Shown here: positions 6,634-38,493 of the stretch, piece after piece | How positions within the stretch are numbered: the first letter of the stretch is position 1 | Layout: every line of letters starts with the position of its first letter | Assembly: GCA_003971905.1 (NCBI GenBank) | Contig: RSEE01000016.1 | Location: 496,001-560,000, forward strand | Length of the DNA stretch: 64,000 nucleotides | Direction: 5' to 3' | DNA from: Moniliella sp. 'wahieum' | Lineage: Eukaryota; Basidiomycota; Moniliellomycetes; Moniliellales; Moniliellaceae | Program-made: the position numbers and the translations under genes | The notes under the pieces: generated by a model | Seen by the model: the letters and a program-made list of their open reading frames with translations, nothing else | Databases searched by the model: none | What the model was told of the DNA's origin: nothing

Positions 6634-8621
6634 ATGCCTACCTCCGATGCTGCTGCCAGCGGCGGTGCCCCCGACCGCAGCAAGATCCACGCCCCTACCA
6701 GTGTCCGCTCTGTCCCCGCGCCTTTTATCGACTGGAGCACCAGGTGCGTCCTCCCCGCCCCCTGCCCTCCTCGTCCCATCCTAACCCCCCTCCCCCAGAC
6801 ACGCCACATCCGCACCCACACCGGCGAGAAGCCCCATGCATGCCAGCACGCCGGCTGTGGCAAACGCTTCTCTCGCTCCGATGAGCTGACCCGCCACATG
6901 CGCATCCACGCCAATCCCAAGCGCACCCGCATCATCCAGCCCTCCGCCCCTTGGCTCGCCCCCGCCCCACGGGGCAGGCCAAGTCGCCCGAGCTGTCTGC
7001 GTCCGATGCGAATCCCGTCCCCCTCGTGCCGGCCACATCCGTACCAATGGCAATGCCCGTCCCGTACCCCCGCAGGCTGCGCCCGCCCTGCGATGGAAGG
7101 CAGCTACCCCATGTCGTGGGAGGAGTACCATGCTGGTGCCCCGCCTTACCGATCGGTAACCATCCGCTTCGTCCCAGGCAGGGCCGTTCCTGTTCGTAAA
7201 GGATGCCGATGTTAGCATGGACCCCGAGCCAGAGCGCGACGCCGCTTACTCGCAGTCCCATCCTCCGGTAAGAGGCGGGAACAATATGAATGCGTTGGCA
7301 ATGTTGGCTGCAGAGGAACTGCAGGAACTGAACCAAGCCACTTCGCCCACCGGCGCCGTCACTTCGCCCGGCTCGGCCCCGACCCGGCCGGCGTGCGAGC
7401 ACGAGGGGTGCATGGACTCGTACCATGAACAAATCGCATCGGCCGTGCGTAGTAACTTTCCGTCCCTGCCTCGGCTCATGAAAGACGAAGTCCCCACTAT
7501 GCCCACTCGGCACACCAGCCCGTGTTGGGACCCCGCTCCTTCTCCGGTCCTTCTTATCGGACGATGCGCCCCCCACCCGAGTCGGTGGTGAGTTCGACGG
7601 CGCCTTCGCCCCGGATGAGTGCGCTGGACCGCCCGGGCTTTGGGGACGATCCCGAGTCGGATGGAGAGCTGCCGCCGCCGCAGGCATACAAATATGGTTC
7701 GTCGGTTCCCTCGTCCCACCGTGTCACGGGCAGTCGCGGGCCCGGCACGTTTTTCACCCCTTCTGGTTCCCCCGTACTTGGTCCGCTGCGCAACATGAGT
7801 CTTCGTTCGGCGCGGACCATGCCAAATACCCCGCACACTTCCCGCCCCAGTTCGCCCGTGCACCTGCACCACGCGCGCCAGCCCAATCTCGCTTCTCTCT
7901 CCCCACCCTCGCCCCGGCCGGGTCGGCGCAAGGTTTGGGCGTGTTAGTATCGGATTCTGGCCCGATGCATACGCCCAGTACCGGTCACCATCCCGTTCAC
8001 CGTCACCGTCCATCCCACCCTTACAGTCCGGGCTCGACCTCGGTCAGCTCGGAGGCAGCACGCGCGCGGGCTGGGGTGGCGCGCTCTCTCCAATTGACTG
8101 CGCTCCCGGTCGGGGGCGAGGAGGGCGAGCTAGGCGCGCGTCCATTGGCCCGCTCTCGCTCTTTGGGGCCCATCGGCGCGAAGACGAATTTACTTCGATG
8201 TCCACTGCGCCGAAGAGGCGAAAACGCATTTCGGACTTACTGTCGGCCGCGCCAGGGCCGCAGCCCTCGGGGCCACCACCCTGCGCACCGCTCGCTCTGC
8301 CCCCGGAAGTCCACGATGACTCGTGGCGTGACCCCCGTCCCGCGCGGCTCGGCCGAATCGTCGCCGGCTTCGGAACCGCGCGAGTTGCCCGGGTTGACCT
8401 ACACCAAGTCTGCTGCCTCCTCCATCTCGCACATTCCGCCCACATGCACCAACTCGCCCACCGAGACAAGGCCCGTATCACCATCTTCCTCCTCGGCCTT
8501 TTCCTTGGCCAAGTATAAGTTGCCCCCCTTGAGCGCCATGACGCCGATCGTGCCGACGGAGCAAGCTGCGTCGCCGGGCCCGGCCGCGTTGCCGACGCTG
8601 CGGACGCTGTTGAGCGAATAG
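6634..8621 (+). CDS. creA: C2H2 carbon-catabolite repressor, CreA/Mig1-like
   Basis: Two adjacent C2H2 fingers of the Mig1/CreA type are encoded. The first ([17 protein letters not shown]) is split from the second ([16 protein letters not shown], then [18 protein letters not shown]) by an intron at 6744-6798, at the place where finger 1 ends. The linker TGEKPHAC and the RSDELTRH recognition helix are those of GC-box-binding glucose repressors. The rest of the protein is Ser/Pro-rich and disordered, with a short Leu-rich segment ([15 protein letters not shown], about 7290) and a C-terminal [10 protein letters not shown]. Family knowledge: nuclear DNA-binding repressor of alternative-carbon genes, acting with Cyc8-Tup1. 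The ATG at 6634 is the closest upstream start but is one frame off from finger 1; further frame changes occur at about 6950-7215, 7520 and 7935. The regulatory-region homology is weak, so another Mig-type factor is possible. Confidence 0.85.
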
Positions 8622-27021: not shown

Positions 27022-27108
27022 GCCTCGCTATTTCAATCGGTAGAATTTGAGACTCTTACTTGAAAGAGGTCCATCTCACGGTTGTGGGTTCGAGTCCCAC
27101 GTGGGGCG
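27022..27108 (+). tRNA. tRNA-Lys(CTT), intron-containing, copy 1
   Basis: Acceptor GCCTCGC/GTGGGGC, anticodon stem TGAGA/TCTCA, loop C-T-CTT-A then a 14-nt intron (CTTGAAAGAGGTCC) whose AAGAG pairs with the CTCTT of the anticodon loop, then A38. T-arm GTGGG-TTCGAGT-CCCAC. The mature sequence is the same as the second copy at 47705. Confidence 0.9.
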
Positions 27109-27537
27109 AACTTTTGCAGCCAGGATCTACCCGTACCCACTGATAAGGACCCTTCCATGCCCATCTGTCTGAGGCCGGACGCGCGAGCCTCCTATGTATG
27201 GTGGACTCGCCGTCGTCTTGAACCTGTGGACAAGGCAATGTCATGGCGATGTTGGATGGTTTTGGGGAGTGTAAACATGACTCCGACATTCATGCCACAC
27301 CTGGAAGAGACAACAGGGGCCTGAACGTCTTGAACAATAAGAAGGGAGAGATATACCCGCGTATCGACTTCGGAGGTCAACAATAAGATACAAAGAGAGG
27401 GAGTATGTTGACAAAACTAAGCGCGCCGTTTTGACGTACGTATAGTACTTGCGGCACGGGCGGGTGTGAAAAAAAAATTTCGCTTAGATGACCACATCAC
27501 CCAAAAATGAGTAAATTTTTCCGAATATTACCTTCGG
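27109..27537. other. Spacer between tRNA-Lys and minisatellite
   Basis: No gene seen; contains an A8 run at about 27470. Confidence 0.4.
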
Positions 27538-28204
27538 CACTTTGGCCACATGAGGTCAAGCGCTTTGGCCCAAGAGGTCAAGCGCTTTGGCCCAAGAGGT
27601 CAAGCGCTTTGGCCACATGCGTTCAAGCGCTTTGGCCACATGAGATCAAGCGCTTTGGCCACATGCGTTCAAGCGCTTTGGCCACATGCGTTCAAGCGCT
27701 TTGGCCACATGAGATCAAGCGCTTTGGCCACATGCGTTCAAGCGCTTTGGCCACATGCGTTCAAGCGCTTTGGCCACATGCGTTCAAGCGCTTTGGCCAC
27801 ATGAGGTCAAGCGCTTTGGCCACATGCGTTCAAGCGCTTTGGCCACATGAGATCAAGCGCTTTGGCCACATGCGTTCAAGCGCTTTGGCCACATGAGATC
27901 AAGCGCTTTGGCCACAGGTCAAGCGCTTTGGCCACATGCGTTCAAGCGCTTTGGCCACATGCGTTCAAGCGCTTTGGCCACATGAGATCAAGCGCTTTGG
28001 CCACATGCGTTCAAGCGCTTTGGCCACATGCGTTCAAGCGCTTTGGCCACATGCGTTCAAGCGCTTTGGCCACATGCGCTCAAGCGCTTTGGCCACATGC
28101 GCTCAATGGCTTTGGCCACATGCGCTCAATGGCTTTGGCCACATGCGCTCAATGGCTTTGGCCACATGCGCTCAAGCGCTTTGGCCACATGCGCTCAAAC
28201 GCTT
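27538..28204 (+). repeat. 23-bp minisatellite, about 29 units
   Basis: Tandem 23-bp units built from two palindromes, AAGCGCTT and TGGCCA, separated by a variable hexamer (ATGCGT, ATGAGA, ATGAGG, or ATGCGC toward the right end). The first three units lack the ACATG part (CCAAGAGG variants), one near 27914 is shortened, and the last units change AAGCG to AATGG. Because 23 is not a multiple of three and no unit contains a stop, all three forward frames stay open with a 23-residue protein period; these frames are a by-product and not genes. Confidence 0.95.
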
Positions 28205-29611
28205 AGCTGTTGATTGGATGCGTGCTTGTAGGCTTTCTAACCGGCTGGTTGGATGGGGCTGGCATCGATCCAGAACTACTAGATTTATAGGCAGGGTAGG
28301 TATTTCTTAGGTATAGAATGCATTCGAAGATCGCTGGGAAGCGATGACACGGCAACCACGGTTAGGTGTGACGTCAGACGGAAGCACCACAACATAGTAG
28401 AGCAGTGAGCGGTACAGAAAGTGGCAGGTTAGTATGAGGGGAGCGCGCACTAGGGAGACGCTGGCCAAGTCAGCAGCAGCATGGGGTTAGCGAGAGACAC
28501 AGAAAATGTGCGACGGACTCACAGGTCAGGCGATCAAGAGGGCCAGTAGCGAGGTCAAGCGGGATGAAGGCGGAATGTACACTGGTAGGGCGAACAAGGT
28601 TAGGAACAGCGTTGGCATATAACAGAAGGGACGTACGACGGCGAAAAAGGTCAGATGAGTCGAGGCGAACAAGACGAGACGAACCAACCGTGGGATTCCG
28701 TGCATGGCAGAGCAGCTGGGTAGATAGTGTCAGTGGCAGGACAACTCCAAGCGCGAAGTACGGGGGACATACGATGGCAAGGCAGGCCAGCCAAGCGAGA
28801 GGACCTCAGGCGAGGCAAAATGGAACCAGACGGACAAGGCCGAAGGTGAGCGAAACGGTGCATGCACATCACGCATGCTACCCACAAGGTCAGCAGAAGT
28901 GTGGGGAATGCGAAGGAAGCGGGCACGTACGATGGCGCTGCGGATCAGGTGAAACGAGGGCAAGATGGCCACCGAGGGGGTGTCTGTGTAGGCGGGGTCA
29001 GCAACAGAGCGCTGGTGGGCAAGAGAACACATACGACAAAAGCAATGCAGACAGTGAGAGGGGGCCGGGGCGAGAGGCAGAGGGGGCGTTCACCAGCGAT
29101 ACTGACGAGGCGAGGAGGACGGAGTGTGGCGGGAGAGGGAATGGAGACGTACGGCAGCAATGCAGACCAGGCGCGGAGAACCGAGCGATGGGGACGGGAC
29201 TAGCAAGGCGGGCAGTAAGCAGTGCAGGCAACAACGATGGTGATGTTAGTGGCCAGGGGAAGAAGATGGTGCTGTTGCGCCGTGGCACAGCAGAGCACTC
29301 TGAGATGTGTTGGCTGCAGAGATGGGATACTGGTTGCTGCGGGCGCAATGAGAGGGGCGGTGGTGAGGAGACAGGATGCAACCACAGAGGAGCAGGAGGT
29401 TAAAAGGAGGCGCGTGTGGCGCAGCCACATTCTGTGCGCACAGACCAATCTGGACCACGCCAGGGGCCTAGGTAAGCTATTATATCTGTCTATTAACGCC
29501 ACAACACTAGCGGCCCCCTGCAGCAGTGTTCAAGGGTCTAATCATCAATCAAGCTTCAAGAGCGCTCTCTTGAGTTTGCCGATTTGCGACTTGCTGTAGT
29601 ACTAGTTGTCT
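28205..29611. other. Purine-rich spacer with degenerate repeats
   Basis: 28440-29410 is strongly A/G-biased on the plus strand. A recurring word close to ACGTACGAYGGC appears near 28632, 28763 (ACATACGATGGC), 28926, 29028 and 29147, each in a roughly 100-160-base period with GGTCAG/GGTGAG words. A 279-codon forward frame (28564-29403) covers it, but its composition (Arg/Gly/Glu without any motif) fits the base bias. I call no gene. Confidence 0.5.
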
Positions 29612-29875
29612 CTGTTGCGACGGTGACTGGTTACTGGCTTCGCCGAACGCGACGCACTTGCAGCTTCTCTAGCCCCGAGGCTCCGCGGGCTCCGAAGACT
29701 GCTGATGCGCGCGTACCCGCGTAAGCCAACGACGAATAGCCTTGTCCAGTATAGCCCTCTCGTCCTGCTTCCTACCACCAACGCCTATCTCTCGCCCGCA
29801 ATCGATCGTTTACGCTACTGTCCCAAACGCTTCAGCATTCATTGCGGTCTCCATAGCCGGGTGAATCGCTATACA
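29612..29875 (+). repeat. Dispersed repeat, copy 2
   Basis: Similar to 2331-2560; it begins GTTGCGACGGTGA and ends GGTCTCCATAGCCGGGTGAA. This copy has about 30 extra bases in the middle (around 29690-29745). Confidence 0.7.
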
Positions 29876-30037
29876 GGTCACGATTATCCTCACTTGATCC
29901 ATACTAGTGGCCTACGGTGTTACATCAAGCTTCAAGTGAATGGGCACCACATGACTTCTTATGTTCACGCACGATGCACCAAAGTCCTTGCGCAGGCCGA
30001 ATGAATGGTCAGTGCTATATCACTGGGAGGAGCTCCT

Positions 30038-31431
30038 CTAAGTCTTCGGAACTGCGTTCAGGTCCGGGAGCAGCATCGAGCAATGCGGATACACGTCCGC
30101 CGGGCCGCCTGCAACGTTTAGCTGACTCTGCAGCGTGTTCACATATGTGGTGGCATCTGGTGGTGTGTTCGAAGACAAGTTGTTAAACTCTTTTTCCACC
30201 CTCGTCCACTGGGCCTGGGCTGTTCGCTCAGTAGTGTCGCTGCCGTTCTGCGTGAAAACCTGAAGGCGCGCCATGGCAATATGGACAAGGGCAAATTTTT
30301 TCACAGCGCACGCTGGAAACCGCTTGAGATGAGCCGGGAGCGTGTTGCGCATGTTGCCCAACTTCCCCCAGGTCTCACGAATGTAGCCGTCCAGGTTGAA
30401 CACCGTCCTGTCGGCCTGCGTTGGATGAGGGCCTTGATGGCGGTACTGGAAATGGGTTAGGAGGGGTTAGCTGCAATCCTGGACACATAATGAGAGATTA
30501 TGCGCACTCGATGCAGTAAATCATGCCGCAGAGTATTCCAATGAGGAGTCAGGACCTTCTTGAGCTCATGGAGAAAGTCGTCCATACGTCCTCTCCAAGC
30601 GAGGTCAAGAGGTATGCACAGGAGTTGCCGCTCGCGCGGTTGCCGTAGCAAGTGGGACACGCGCGACCACAGGTGGGCATTGCTAGTAATGGACGCATTC
30701 GGGGCGCACCACACGATGATCGCAAGGGCAGCAACCCACGTCTGCAGGCATTGAAGTTAGTCCTATAATAACCAATGAAGAATATGAGGCGAGCATACCT
30801 TGTTTGCATCCAAGAACGACCGGTAACCCTGGGGGCTCGCATTGGCAGACGCCATCAAGTTCTGATAATGAGTCTCCATTCTAGTCTCGATGCGTTCCAT
30901 ACGATCGTTCATGTGGTTGACAGCCCCTACGAGCATACGCAACGTCGTCACAATCTGGTCGGTATTAGACCCTTCCTGTAAATCTCCCTCGTTGAAGAGG
31001 GAAGGGACGGCTGGAAATGATCCTTCCCGTTGGGCCCTGGGCATCGTATCATCGCCGTTGTCGAGCAAAGTGTCGATAGTTGGAAACATCTCGCCGAAAG
31101 TGCTCATCGCGCTGTTCCCATCGTTTTCGGTATCAGGAGCCGGAGTTTCCCCCTCCGTTACGGCCTCCTGGGTCATATCATCATCCACGTCGATGTTTCC
31201 TGTGGTGGTCATGTCCAAGGCATTGTTTGCATCGCCATGGTACTGGGCTTGGGTTAGAATAACATTATTCTCAGAGGGAGCTGTCCCTTGCTGCGACAGT
31301 GTTGTCGGCCGCGCCTGGCGTGTCGCCCTCGCAGCAAAGCGCTGATCCAGGACGGACAGAAGGTGTGCCCGCCCCTGCCAACGAGGTGCGGCGCCGGAGA
31401 GGAATCCGACTGGGGGTTCCTCTTCTGACAA
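30038..31431 (-). CDS. Unknown 424-residue protein, divergent partner of the Tnp2-like gene
   Basis: Family not recognised. Three exons read without any frame change: 31431-30799, 30741-30508 and 30445-30038, with introns 30742-30798 (GTATGC...CAG) and 30446-30507 (GTGCGC...CAG) that keep the frame. The N-terminal half is acidic and disordered (DDDMTQEAVTEGETPAPD), ending in a predicted coiled segment (AVNHMNDRMERIETRMETHYQ). The C-terminal half is folded-looking: KTWVAALAIIVWCAPN, RRGMDDFLHE-like basic/hydrophobic helices, WGKLGNMRNTLPAHLKRF and KKFALVHIAMARLQVF. The gene is back-to-back with the transposase-like gene at 32336. Its clean frame in a window full of frame breaks, and its position, suggest it is part of the same repeated unit. 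That is inference. Confidence 0.72.
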
Positions 31432-31768
31432 TTGGAGGGGCCATTGTCGGTACAGTTGGTAAGCTGTATAAGCACAACGGTGTTGGTTGGGAAGGAAGTT
31501 GTAATGCGCTTATACACAAGGAGGACCACCGGGCCTACGGCCCGGTCAGCTGGGGCTTCGCTCCAGCTTGATGCTGCGTCGCCACCTTAGCACCTTTTCC
31601 ACTTCGCCACCGTAGCCACCGTTCCACGGTCGCCAACACCGACATAGAGAAATAATATAACCGATGCTTGCTGGCTGCAGGGGGCGTGGAAGGTGGCACG
31701 GGGCAGCTGATGTTAAAAGTGCACAGGGCGAATCGAGGGATAATATAGGACCGGATGGTGAGAACCGG
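31432..31768. other. Left part of the divergent spacer
   Basis: No gene seen. Holds an overlapping set of short frames only. Confidence 0.4.
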
Positions 31769-31925
31769 AGGGTCCTGATATCCTGGCGATCCCTCTGGTT
31801 CCTTAACCTTGGTGGCGCATCCAACAAGCAACCCCCGCAAGATGAACGGTTATTAGGTTTAGACGCAGGGTTCCCCCTGTCCCAGCCTTACGCTCTGTCA
31901 ATGAAATAGACGCGATCTAGGGATA
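31769..31925 (+). repeat. Dispersed repeat, related to 52495-52755
   Basis: Shared words in the same order: GGGTCCTGAT, TGGCGA.CCC.CTGGTT, AAC.AGCAAC, CCAGCCTTA.GCTCTG and a terminal GCG..TAGGGATAT / GCG..TAGAGATAT. The other copy is longer, with an internal duplication. Confidence 0.6.
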
Positions 31926-32005
31926 TTGTGAGAAGAGCCGCATCAGTATGGTCTGTGTGTTTCGACCAGGGTCTATCGCGCCCCGTGCAGTTCAAGGAGC
32001 TCCGA

Positions 32006-32220
32006 TGTTGTAACCATTAATTCAATTTAACTTTTGCGTTTTCTTTTCCCAAGATGCATGATCTCCGCATCCCTAAGGTATAGCCTCTGTTGCTCTTTTT
32101 GATGCATCCTTGTATTAGGCGTGTCGTTGGCTGGTGGCGTATTCGACCACCACACGACCAACACTATAGTGCTATCGCATCACCCATTAGGGTGGCCATC
32201 TGGACTGCCACTCTCATCAG
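32006..32220 (+). mobile_element. Old LTR-like fragment, family B-related
   Basis: Starts TGTTG and ends CACTCTCATCA. Its last 100 bases resemble family B (GTGCTATCGCATCACCC, GGCCATCTGGACT, CTCATCA). Identity is low and no target duplication is visible, so this is a diverged relative and not a recent insertion. It lies about 115 bp from the first ATG of the transposase-like gene. Confidence 0.5.
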
Positions 32221-32335
32221 ATAGGGGATCACGAATGTAATACGCCTTGGAAGAGCATCAAAAAGAAGCGGGAGAGCGTGCGTCTCTGGTCTGTATGGGA
32301 CAGGGGGGGCAAGGTTTAAGGTTGGAGGGCCGCGA

Positions 32336-35300
32336 TTGTCTGTCGGGCCGGTGGCAAGAAAAGCACCCACACCCATGCATCATGTACAACCCATCGCCCA
32401 TCCTTACCAAGTCGCCACCGCCATGCTTCGACCTCGGCTCAGTGGTGCCGCCCGATGGAACAAGCTCGCACACGTGCACAATGGGACAGAAGCATCTGCT
32501 GTACCTGTTTCCTCGGCCTGGTCCACGGTGCAGCAGAACGGGAGGTTGCTGTTCCAGTGCCGTGCTTGCCCAGTTCGACCGATGACCCAGTTTGATGCAC
32601 TCAAGCACGCGAAGGTGCGCAAGCACATCCATAACGTGGTGCTGGGTGCGAGGATGGGGGCTAGTCACGCCCACGCCATTGACGAGGTGGCCGAAGATGC
32701 GAGCATGCCCCCCCAGCCACCTAACGCACGCTCGCCTTCCCCTGCTTCCCGTGCCTCTTCACCTGTAGACACTACCATGGCCGAGGACGAGTTAGGCCAG
32801 ACGCAGCCCAGTGTTTCCTTTGAACCGCCTTCAAGAGCCCACGGGCGTGTCCTTTGCCGCCCGTGGGCGCGTGACAACCCGCTCGGCGCCTCGAATGAGC
32901 GTGTCGAGCAAATCCGCAACCAAGAGACTCTCGAGCACTTGCTTTTGGGCCAAGGTGATGATGTGATCGGCGACGAAGATGACTCGAACTGGACTGATGC
33001 CGAGGATGACCTCGACTGGGACAGGGAGATGATGGGCGCAGGGTCGAACGCCACGGCGCACGCAGCCGGATGCATTGCGTCTTCCGCCACACAGAGACGG
33101 CAGCATCACGGCTGGCGGCCCAAGCCTCATGCTGCTGAAGCAAGGATCAAGCTTCTGGAACGACTGGTGGCCAATCCCCCAGCGTCATGGCCTGCCGCAG
33201 GCGTCTTTGAGTCACCAATGGTACGTCACATGTCACATTCTTGCTCTCTTGCTCGTTTGAGTGTGACTGGTGAGATTAACCTGCCAGCCGCAGATCTGGG
33301 CAGTTATGAACGTGTTCTATGGCTCGGTATTCTCCTTCTCAAGGCGCCAGGCCCGGGCAGCATTGCTCTTGATGCGGCTCGCCCGCTGCTTGCAGTGCGC
33401 CATACCTACATGGCACAAGGTGTCGCAAGTGCGGAGGAAACTCAACGGGCCGTTCACATCTGTTCCGAAGTATGTTGACTCTTCTCTGAGCGAGACGTAC
33501 TTCAGTCCATTGGATGAGATCGCACGTCTGGCGTATGGCAACACCCGCTTGCGGAGCGTGATCGAGGACTTGCCAGTGAAGCGAGCTGTGGTGCGCAACG
33601 TATCAGATGGCCAACGTTTCTATAAGGTCATGTCACGACAGCCGACTGCTGTCAACAGCTGCGGGAGAGTATTTTGGTTGGACGAACCCGCGGCTGTGAA
33701 GAGGCAGAGACCTGACACACAACCTCCCCATCCCCAGCGGATCGTTCTTGTCCAAGGATGGCACATTGAAGCTGACTCAAACGCTCCTCGGCGTGTAATG
33801 GCCCGTGTGAGAGACATGGTTCTGGATGATGGTGCTGGAGGCGCCGCTGGCATGATACGGCAAACATATCGTGTGTCCCCTACAGCTGAACAATCGGTTG
33901 TTCCACTCGACGATCTCACGCCCTTCAAGGAACAGGCCTACCGTCGCCTGTCATTTCGCGACCAGTCTGGTGACGTTGTGGCGCAGAACTCGCTCCGCGC
34001 CATGTCTAAGGAGCATGGTGCCGACCGCGTTATCTTTGCACCCATGATGGCTTGGTGCGACGACGCGCGCGTTTTCAGCCACAGCCGGCAGCGTGCGGGT
34101 GCAACAGTCATCTACCTGTCCTGGGCCGGTCTTCCTCAAAGCCACCTGTTCGCGGATGAGGGTACGAGTTTGTTCATGGTCAAGCTGGGAACTGATGAAG
34201 TGCGCGCGTTTGAGGCCCTTGTGCGCCAGGTCCAGTATGTCTTTGTTACTAAGCTATCTTATATATATGTCACCGCTGACTGGCATTTCTGCTCAGGATA
34301 TGGGGAAAGACAGGCATCAAGGGGGCCGACGGAATATCAGGCCGCCCGATTGTCCTCATCCCCCTTGTTCATGCTGTGGTAGCGGACAACCCAGCGGGAA
34401 ACCACCTTGCTGCCCGTGCCCTCAGTCCTAGCCCCCTGTGCTGCCGTATTTGCGGGGCCAATTTCCAGAACCGCGGCCATGCTGACCAAATTCTGCATGT
34501 GCTCACAGGAGGTGTGAAGCGAAGCAATAAGCAGATCCAAGCGAACCTCGAGAGGCAGGTGGATCACGCTATCCTGGGCAATAACGCTGCATACGACCGG
34601 GAACGCGCCGCGACGGGCGACAGGGACCCCAACGTCCACCGACTCTGCTGCTCCTGTGTCGCCGACATGGACATGTTCGAGAATAAGGGTGAGAAGCAGC
34701 CCATTCACACTCGCCCGTCCCGGAAGGGATTTGCTTTGCCTAAGACAAGGGCTAGGGTCATTGAGCTGAACCAATCCGAGGCGGACGATCTGCGACGGAA
34801 GAGTTTCTTGATGTGCCCGGCGCTGTCCCTGCCGCAGTTTGATGTGGCGGACTGCTTTCCCCTCGACTTTCTTCACACCTTCCTCCTCGGAATAGGGAAG
34901 GACCTGCTAAAGTTGGTGGCGACAAGGGTGAAGCCTAAGGCGAAGGAGCAATTGGCGATATTCATCAGCGGTCTCAACACGGAGGGTATCCCTGGCGCAG
35001 AGGGCACCAAGATCCGAGCTAAGGGTTTGATGGCTAACCTAAAGACTGGGGTTGGGAAAGATGTGCGCACTATGCTTGTGGCTCTCCCATTCGCGGCACT
35101 CCCTATCCTTGAGACCGGAAAAGAGGCCAACAATGAGAAGGAGTTCACGTTTCCGATTCCGCTTTATGATGCTATCGTCGCGGCAGCCGACCTGCATGGT
35201 TTGCTTTCCAGGACATGGTACCCGGCAGCCGGGCAGGCCAGGGCCCAGTTCATGGTACGTCCCACAGCCTTGATTGATATACGGGTTTAGACGCTGACAT

Positions 35301-36596
35301 GCCTGTTATGGCTGGAACAGTACCGGGTGACCCAGACTGCATACCGACTGATCGAACGCCTTTCGAGACTCGGCCCCGACAGCGCCATGATCGCGACGCG
35401 ACCGAAGCTCCATCTCCTCCTGGCGCATACGTCTGATGCGCTCGAATTGTTCGGCCCTCTCCAGAACACGGACGCTGCCAGATTCGAGGGTCGCGTGAAG
35501 CACATCCGTGCGTCCGTTGCCCATTGCAACTTCCAGAACCTCCCGCGTGACACCTTGTACAACGTCATGGTCGCCGAGAAGATTCTGCACCACTCTTCAC
35601 CGGGGTATGATGTGTCTAGTGACGGCTCGGTGGTGGCTCGGCCTGGAGCTCCTCCCGGGGTGCTGGAGCAAGGGAAGGAAGAGCCCGACTACGACTCTGA
35701 TGGCATGGCGATTCCACGAGTGGTGCTGGCCCCAGCCAAGAACCAATCCTCGGTGGGTTGCAACAACCTCACCGACGAGGAGCTGGGTCGTTTCCAGTTG
35801 GCGGACCGTGTCAAGGTGCGGGCGCAGTACCTGGTGGGCAAGGCGGCTGTTATCGCTACAGGGGAGATGATCCGTGTGGGGATGAACGTGACGATCGGCC
35901 AGAAGTCGGCCGAGTACAGCGCGTCCGCCGACTTTGTTTGGCAAGATCCTCCGGATTGGGCGCGACCCGTTGGATGAGAAGGCTGCCTGGGTCGGGTACA
36001 GGCCGTACATCATCACGGGTAGCACGCATCGCTCAGGCTGCGCATTGTCCGCGAACTCGATGATGTGTGATGCTCCAGAAGAGTTTGCCCTATTGATGGT
36101 GAGCACCGATGAGTGCTGAATCCGGCTGCGTGACAATTGCTCATCAAGTACTGACACTGGGACATTGTGACCACAGGATGTTGGCAGCGAGGCGCCTCTC
36201 CAGCACGCCTGCACCAAGAAGTGCATGATAGAGCAAGACGGCGAGAAAATACTGGTGCACAACTACGAGAAGGACCCAGTCTCGGGGGAGAATGAGGCGA
36301 TGGAGTACTTCATCCCGGCGGCTTCTCATTTTAAAGCCAAGAATGGGAAGCGGCTGGTATTGAACGAATACGCTATGCGAAGTCCACCACACCACAAGCC
36401 GCACATGGACTTGAGGATCAGCTGGAAGTCCCCCGAACTGAGCGCCAACGCGCTGAGCAAAGACGTGGCCCAGAGGATTGCAACGAACGGTGCCATGCAC
36501 CTGTGGGACAAGCGCGCCAAGAAGAAGACACCTGCCGTGGCCGCTGTCGGAGGAGGGGGCAACAGCGGCGACTCTTCGGACAGTGATAATGATTGA
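32336..36596 (+). CDS. Large Tnp2/Plavaka-like transposase-related protein
   Basis: Five exons (introns 33221-33293, 34235-34296, 35255-35320, 36099-36176) encode about 1,300 residues. Near the N-terminus is a CxxC...H..H zinc-finger-like segment (LLFQCRACPVRP then KHAKVRKHIH), then an acidic linker. The middle has the blocks found in fungal Tnp2-type transposase-related proteins: FAPMMAWCDDARV with WAGLPQSHLF, then LIPLVHAVVADNPAGNHL followed by SPLCCRICGANF, and SLPQFDVADCFPLDFLHTFL. In relatives these are CDDTSG, LLADNPM/CRIC and D-x-MH...LG; here CDD, ADNP and CRIC are kept. The C-terminus is a Lys- and Ser/Asp-rich tail. Only one frame break is seen, at about 35935 before FGKILRIGRDPLDEKAAW. 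The ATG at 32423 is an alternative start. I find no terminal inverted repeats, so it may be a transposon core or a domesticated gene. Confidence 0.75.
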
Positions 36597-38493
36597 TGCG
36601 AGAACCAAATGGACATATGCATCGCGCGATGAGGATGAGTATAGGTTTGGTGTCAGTAGTCAGTCGTCAGTAGCCAGGCCATAGGGTGGTGCGCATCCCG
36701 GACCCATCAGCCGGAACCTCTCGAGACGTGAGATGGGGCGGTGGGCGGCGCTTTGACATGATGCGCATGCGCACATAAGCTTCTTTTGCCGGCGAACGAG
36801 CCAGGTGACGGGTGACTGTCATGCGTCCCATGCGCACGGGCATGGCCGAAGCGAAGGGGCGGTTATGGAGTAAGAGGCCAGACGGTGAGGCGTCGGTTGC
36901 AGCCCCAAATGGATGTCGCCACAAGCGTCGGGTCTCTGCCACGGCCTCCTCAGCCCCACTCCGCTTATCCAGCCGATCTACCCATTTTCCAATCCCGCCA
37001 TGACCCATGTTTCAATTTTTCACACCGCCCGTGGGGGCCGCCGAGGGTCCCAACACTTTCGGCCATCATGCATCATGCTGCGTAGTCACCAGACTGACTG
37101 CACAGACTAGTGATGCCCTGTCATCATGTCGTATGTCATAGTATGAGCAACAGGAAGAAATTTCGGGCGGCAATAAGGCGATCCATGTAGCCACCGCGAA
37201 AGGCCGACAGGGAGAGGAGAGAAGAGAAGCCTGCGTGGCTTTTTTGCGTACACCGAAATCAGCGGCCCAATAAGGCGGGACAATAGAATGGGAGTTTTGA
37301 CCGCAGCATACCCTCTTTGGGGGAATGGTTCACTCTTTCTTGAATCCGAAAAAAGCCGAGAGGACCTGCGGTGGATCCACCCGCACCGGCCATCTTGGCC
37401 CTTCTCCGCACCTCGGTCTTCCGACGCCGCCGCTGTCAGCCGCAGCACACAGCCAACTAGTCAACGCACATACGCCTCACCTGTCACAACAATGGCACCC
37501 CCTGTCTTCCACGCCCATCCGACCCAATAGGGTTTGCAGATTGAAACTTGAAGGAACGTGGGCCACGCTCCACTGACGCTCCACGCTCAAACCACGCCAA
37601 ACCACGCAGCACTCTCCCTCTCTCAATCCCCATCAATCCGCACGCCACACGCCCATCCGACACGACCACATGTCCACACACCCGCAGTCTCCTATATCGA
37701 CACCATCCATCAGCACAGTCTTGAGAAACTTTCTCTGGAACAATATTGGCTTTTTTCTCTTCTTCTGTATCCGTTCTTGACGCCCACCACGTACCACAAT
37801 AACCAACACGTCATATACACAGCGCGACGATTCTTCCTCCATCTCTCGGATCCCGCGGCATCTTAGCTCCATGACATGAGACGCGCAGCCACCTTCAGGT
37901 GTAGGTGTGTTGCTGCGGTGCCCCCTGGTCAGTTTTGCCCTAGAGGAGATGTCGTCCCTTGCATACTCGCGCCCAAAGGGCCGAGAATGTCGGTGGACGA
38001 CAGCAATGCACTTTCATGGATTTCGCACGTCTTCGGCGCCTGTCACTCCTCTGGGTTGCTATTGGTTCCACTCGCTATACCACCGACTGGGGCGGGGAGA
38101 CGACTGAGCGGGAGAGCGTGTCGTGCGACATCATGCATTGATACCTCACAGCTCAAATCGTTCCTTGCCTCTCTGCCAAGGGCCCGTGCTGGCCAGAGGC
38201 CAGCTGGGAAGATCCGTTCTATAGGAGGTTTCTCTACAACGAGAAAAGAGAGCAAAGGCCAAGATGGTATATGCGGGGCTACCGTATAATACTCCAAGAT
38301 TCTGCGAGGTCTCTATCTTTTTCCACCACCACTCCACATTTCTCCCGCGTCTCTCGTCTCTACGCACAACCAACAAACACCTCCCATTTCACTCCTAAAC
38401 ACAGCCCAGTACGTCTCATTCTTCCTTATCTCTTCCATCTACCCTGCTTTTTCTCGAGACTGATCAATCCTTACTTGCTCTGCACACAGCATC
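36597..38493. other. Intergenic, no gene seen
   Basis: Short frames only. 36655-36680 has CAGTAGTCAGTCGTCAGTAG repeats. 38290-38490 is a pyrimidine-rich leader-like stretch before the secreted-protein ATG, with a plausible intron end (CACAG) at 38485-38489. Confidence 0.45.

Follow-up and report, generated by a model that had tools for sequence, protein, structure and literature searches.

Two divergent genes within a DNA transposon

The locus lies in a window of 64,000 nucleotides (the whole stretch of Moniliella sp. 'wahieum' DNA analyzed here, within contig 16) and contains two spliced genes transcribed away from each other, one with three exons on the minus strand (orfA) and one with five exons on the plus strand that encodes a transposase (Table 1). 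Both genes lie where the original prediction had placed them, and their products, 430 and 1,298 amino acids where open, are close to the predicted 424 and 1,300. The splice sites of both genes were read from the DNA sequence rather than from transcripts, the introns are short, and GC content is near 57%, features that would fit a filamentous fungus. The genes had also been described as almost intact, which holds for other copies of the element: orfA is open in three of the four other full-length copies, and the transposase is open through all five exons in one of the five full copies as assembled. The window copy, compared with the four other full copies, carries frame-breaking indels in transposase exon 4 and orfA exon 1. 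The remaining one of those four also has indels in orfA, and every full copy but the one with the open frame has small indels in the transposase as assembled.

Table 1. Features of the element and its insertion site, in window coordinates.
Feature	Position	Strand	Details
Complete DNA transposon, 9,579 bp	27455..37033	.	Similarity among copies ends at both points; empty site on contig 4 (C4)
Left 2-bp target-site duplication	27453..27454	.	GG
Left terminal inverted repeat	27455..27475	+	CACGGGCGGGTGTGAAAAATT in other copies; slightly different in the window copy
Left subterminal tandem array	27540..28204	+	23-bp unit CTTTGGCCACATGCGTTCAAGCG, about 29 units
orfA	30038..31444	-	Exons 31444-30799, 30741-30508, 30445-30038; indels in exon 1 in the window copy
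Intergenic region between the divergent genes	31445..32422	.	Presumed promoter region, from its position
Transposase gene	32423..36596	+	Exons 32423-33220, 33294-34234, 34297-35254, 35321-36098, 36177-36596
N-terminal zinc-finger domain of the transposase	32423..32683	+	C46, C49, H62, H68
Transposase exon 3	34297..35254	+	Putative second catalytic Asp D610 (ADNP); C629xxC632
Transposase exon 4	35321..36098	+	H930xxxxH935; putative catalytic Glu E955 (RFEG)
Right terminal inverted repeat	37013..37033	-	Window copy one base short of the 21-mer
Right 2-bp target-site duplication	37034..37035	.	GG

Similarity among the five full-length loci begins at window position 27455 and ends at 37033, past both genes on either side; the exception is C153, where the right flank is also common. 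At both ends lies the same inverted 21-mer, varying slightly in some copies, the window copy included; the exact 21-mer has 24 genomic matches and its reversed control none, and the element terminates in CACGGG..CCCGTG. Among the 13 copies with both ends read (the five full-length copies and 8 of the 15 loci L014-L028), the flanking 2 bp agree in ten (P 2e-10 at a chance of 1/16 per copy) and disagree in C153, L016, and L021, while agreement over 3 bp occurs in 0 of 13. The ten matching pairs are TA four times and GG, TT, CT, GC, TC, and GA; they include L023 and L028, in which the right-hand repeat falls outside the part that resembles the window. Contig 4 matches the window copy's left flank up to base 570374 at 95% identity and its right flank from base 570373 at 88%, and this homologous locus is an empty site in which the element is absent and a single GG stands at the joint. 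Terminal inverted repeats, 2-bp target duplications, and an empty site together identify a cut-and-paste DNA transposon. The mismatched flanks of C153 (L029, 1-5309), which has the window's right flank at 98% and a different left flank, reflect either an assembly chimera or recombination. A predicted tRNA-Lys gene lies at window 27022-27108, about 350 bp left of the insertion; similar stretches of about 90 bases account for 38 of the 42 genome matches listed.

The CDD, ADNP, and CRIC blocks expected in the transposase are present, and their surroundings have the spacing of RAG1-type enzymes: D610 is followed after 19 residues by C629xxC632, and H930xxxxH935 after 20 residues by E955, a combined pattern that shuffling the protein 20,000 times reproduced twice. 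Derivatives that extend over H930, H935, and E955 retain these residues, the last two giving mixed readings in L028. D610 is changed and the CxxC retained in three short relatives of 75-82% identity (L017, L018, and L025); since these are deletion derivatives, the changes say little. The predicted N-terminal finger is also present, with the spacing C-x2-C-x12-H-x5-H rather than the HxxxxH first proposed. Its four zinc ligands are invariant in all five aligned rows (window, L034, L035, L036, and L038), and its structure model has a pLDDT of 85.7, with no Foldseek match at E 0.001. In most deleted derivatives the finger lacks C46 and often H68 as well.

Pfam searches with separate open reading frames and with the spliced proteins gave no credible match, and the spliced transposase had no match to PF18759 at E 10. 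PF12473, at E 0.011 and 0.067, fell far under the cut-off and was rejected with other weak rows from the separate frames. A PDB sequence search with the transposase returned nothing at E 10. In the protein database, transposase residues 400-1100 found nothing at 0.01 and residues 520-1010 nothing at 10, which is weak evidence of absence because fungal proteins may be scarce there.

Copies, recent movement, and the left-end array

In the genome searched (69.5 Mb, 223 contigs), a 1,011-base piece of the transposase gene has at least 41 matches (40 of 46 candidates scored). Among the matches listed, the whole piece is present in six (five at 99-100% identity and one at 95%), part of its last third in 22 rows (21 places), and part of its first 564 bases in 13 rows at 75-82%. 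The search for further copies in the same arrangement, suggested with the original prediction, recovered five full-length loci (C16, C153, C19, C20, and C3) with the two genes head to head, and a sixth (C82) where orfA, the exact terminal repeat, and the finger are arranged as in the window and the 1,011-base piece is unmatched beside them. Over the right 7 kb of the element, any two full copies are separated by 0-10 substitutions in 6,945-6,979 aligned bases, with none between C16, C153, and C3, indicating that the element moved recently; what differs beyond this is small indels that may be assembly errors. Divergence among five 5.1-kb derivatives is 0-0.39%, and a sixth, shorter one (L022) differs from these by 4.9-5.0%. 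Stops and frame breaks in the copies examined rule out the 5.1-kb derivatives as coding, and with their frames broken they probably moved in trans. Of the two possibilities originally raised, a single large DNA transposon with a second protein is therefore the one borne out, by the inverted repeats, the target duplications, the empty site, and the six head-to-head loci. Elsewhere in the window, about 220 bases (2329-2552) resemble the element's 29.6-29.85 kb stretch at 73-79% identity, rising to 89% in L035/L036, and probably derive from a related short element.

The 23-bp tandem array was seen at the left end only, no similar subterminal repeats having been found at the right end of the element. 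The left-end segment measures 750 bp in the window copy, against 388, 404, 319, and 385 bp in the four remaining full copies, and the array of the window copy is about twice as long as in those otherwise nearly identical copies (L029-L032), so array length changes more quickly than mutations accumulate elsewhere in the element. The adjoining stretch (window 28204-29400) is purine-rich with a 321-codon open frame, appears non-coding by eye, and is mostly retained in short derivatives.

The second protein and its possible roles

The orfA protein has a Met-rich stretch from about residue 180 that looks coiled-coil-like by eye, and the AlphaFold2 model of its last exon (pLDDT 49.5) is helical in the C-terminal part at low confidence. 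No Pfam family matched it, whether DNA-binding, TNPA-like, or TET/JBP, and nothing in the protein database, which may hold few fungal proteins, matched at E 1; within these two resources no relative was found outside its own genome. Inside the genome, relatives beyond the five full copies occur on C82, C78, C66, C93, C8, C14, C100, C94, and C77. The divergent relatives compared were those on C8, C93, C66, C14, C77, and C78 (L034-L039), C100 and C94 being left out. In five of the six (L034-L038) a finger of the transposase type lies upstream of orfA on the same strand; the finger on C14 (L037) is a weak match (E 0.005) about 900 bases from orfA and falls outside the ligand alignment, and C78 (L039) has no upstream finger and matches orfA over its last part only. 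Two families can be distinguished, C8 with C77 (91% alike) and C93 with C66 (89%), and they join finger to orfA differently, at about transposase residue 176 to orfA residue 119 in C8 and about 120 to 135 in C66. A single frame runs through the joint in C8, with a frame break upstream of it, and no transposase core was detected within 7.5-8.5 kb around the orfA relatives on C8 and C93.

Codon positions and intron placement suggest that orfA is a genuine coding gene. In a relative of about 45% identity, both introns stand, by eye, at the same places. Third-position excess, tested on 6 of 21 orfA pairs, is clear in the comparison with the most divergent relative (L009-L037; 91 of 208, P 0.0011), suggesting that orfA has been coding over long times, and is weaker in L034-L037 (P 0.012) and L009-L034 (P 0.041). 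It is not clear in L035-L036 (P 0.08), L009-L036 (P 0.58), or L034-L038 (P 0.67), and since close pairs show no clear excess, the short relatives look like decaying copies.

We favor, with moderate confidence, the reading that the element is a very recently active cut-and-paste transposon of the CMCT group in which orfA serves as a TNPA-like accessory partner. The transposase would bind DNA through its N-terminal C2H2-type finger, and its RAG1-like D-D-E core would cut at the CACGGG...CCCGTG ends and leave 2-bp duplications; cores of the RAG1/CMCT kind cut at CA..TG ends. The orfA protein would work with the transposase as TNPA does with TNPD in maize Spm, helping to bring the ends together, with the 23-bp array as the likeliest site, and it may also regulate expression. 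The array itself could be a binding platform for orfA or for the finger. Several observations count against the orfA part of this model: the protein matches neither TNPA nor any DNA-binding family, its last exon is poorly modeled, the form found in the window's own family has no finger, and the array is at the left end only, whereas Spm has TNPA sites at each of its ends. Others bear on the reading as a whole, namely the three disagreeing flanks, the half of the orfA pairs with no clear third-position excess, the finger ligands lost in most deleted derivatives, the D610 changes, the weak L037 finger, and the single full copy with a whole open transposase.

In the same transposon, orfA could instead be a repressor or anti-silencing factor of the divergent promoter and not a needed partner, with the finger-orfA arrangements of short relatives competing for the transposase's sites. 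This is possible, though on balance we think it unlikely. Head-to-head genes could have a common control region, and finger and orfA do occur together on C8 and C93 with no core detected nearby, but nothing indicates that such proteins are being maintained: codon-position bias is not clear in either of the two close pairs of these relatives, and some frames are broken or interrupted by stops. We judge it improbable that orfA was acquired from the host as a passenger without any part in transposition. Its lack of a database or Pfam match suggesting such a part would fit, as would the absence of a transposase core from the compared stretch of some relatives, but the transposase-type finger beside orfA in most of the divergent relatives compared argues against it, as does the retention of the gene pair within ends of one kind in the five full copies and C82. 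The genes are nearly intact and their surroundings are not, as would be expected of a domesticated pair kept by the host, the other possibility originally raised; copy number and the empty site effectively exclude this, and the inverted repeats, target duplications, and broken frames in the window copy also oppose it. We give practically no credence to two unrelated elements nested by chance, since short derivatives without orfA would suit that account but the five full-length copies agree both in their arrangement and in the ends that enclose it.

Within the accessory-partner reading, we also entertain the doubtful idea that the element represents a new CMCT lineage with a swappable finger and a fast-changing array. 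Placed at the head of the transposase in the full element, and ahead of orfA in at least two families of short relatives with different joints, the finger would turn the accessory protein into an element-specific regulator, and the left-end array would set binding strength copy by copy.

Comparison with known transposons

According to the portions of a recent classification drawn on here, CMCT transposases are marked by CxxC and H(3-4)H between the second D and the last E, and CMCT elements by CA..TG termini and 2-5 bp target duplications (PMC12730594). The present element has such termini and duplications, and its CxxC and HxxxxH lie between the second Asp and the Glu, which, as a motif test rather than a tree or alignment, places it in the CMCT group. 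The Tnp2/Plavaka label given by the original prediction survives in part, the spacing being that of the CACTA-Transib-RAG1 group. Like the Plavaka elements described in those portions, it is fungal, has CxxC and H(3-4)H and 2-bp duplications (2 bp in PlavakaA, 2-3 bp in PlavakaB), and carries an extra protein, as some PlavakaB do in the form of TET/JBP (PMC12730594). Its CACGGG..CCCGTG ends differ, however, from the termini given there for both lineages, TGT..ACA in PlavakaA and CATCA..TGATG in PlavakaB (PMC12730594, Kojima 2025), and Pfam PF18759 (Plavaka) has no match in this genome, nor in 14 control genomes. Fungal EnSpm/CACTA elements share the CAC..GTG termini, but the same source, as far as used here, states 3-bp duplications for the Puccinia families (PMC12730594). 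With the Plavaka family match and termini and the EnSpm duplication length all wanting, we file the element as CMCT of unsettled lineage. An open-access literature search found no two-gene Plavaka-like element of this kind.

The D-19-CxxC and HxxxxH-20-E spacings are exactly those of mouse RAG1, as calculated from the positions D708, C727, C730, H937, H942, and E962 in the part of PMC4914335 consulted. Two points separate the element from RAG1/Transib: the PDB search with the transposase sequence gave no match, and Transib makes target duplications of 5 bp. CNEST of Cryptococcus neoformans, a fungal element of the CMC supergroup, also makes 2-bp duplications, which are TA there and varied here (TA in four of ten); the excerpted text of PMC12810828 mentions no second protein for CNEST. 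As a complete, recently mobile, probably fungal CACTA/Transib-group element with RAG1-like core spacing, a one-sided repeat array, and a second protein whose relatives were found only in its own genome, the present element offers a testable case for the evolution of two-protein transposition systems and of the sites they bind, and for module exchange between a transposase and its partner.

Further parallels are plant elements, as described in the sections of PMC2613891 and PMC1636069 drawn on here. Maize Spm/En also pairs a transposase (TNPD) with a second, DNA-binding protein (TNPA), which binds subterminal repeats and is required (PMC2613891, PMC1636069). Soybean Tgmt likewise has asymmetric subterminal repeats, and deletion derivatives of Spm and Tgmt are moved in trans, but in both the two proteins are spliced from one transcription unit, whereas here they are encoded by two divergent genes (PMC2613891, PMC1636069).
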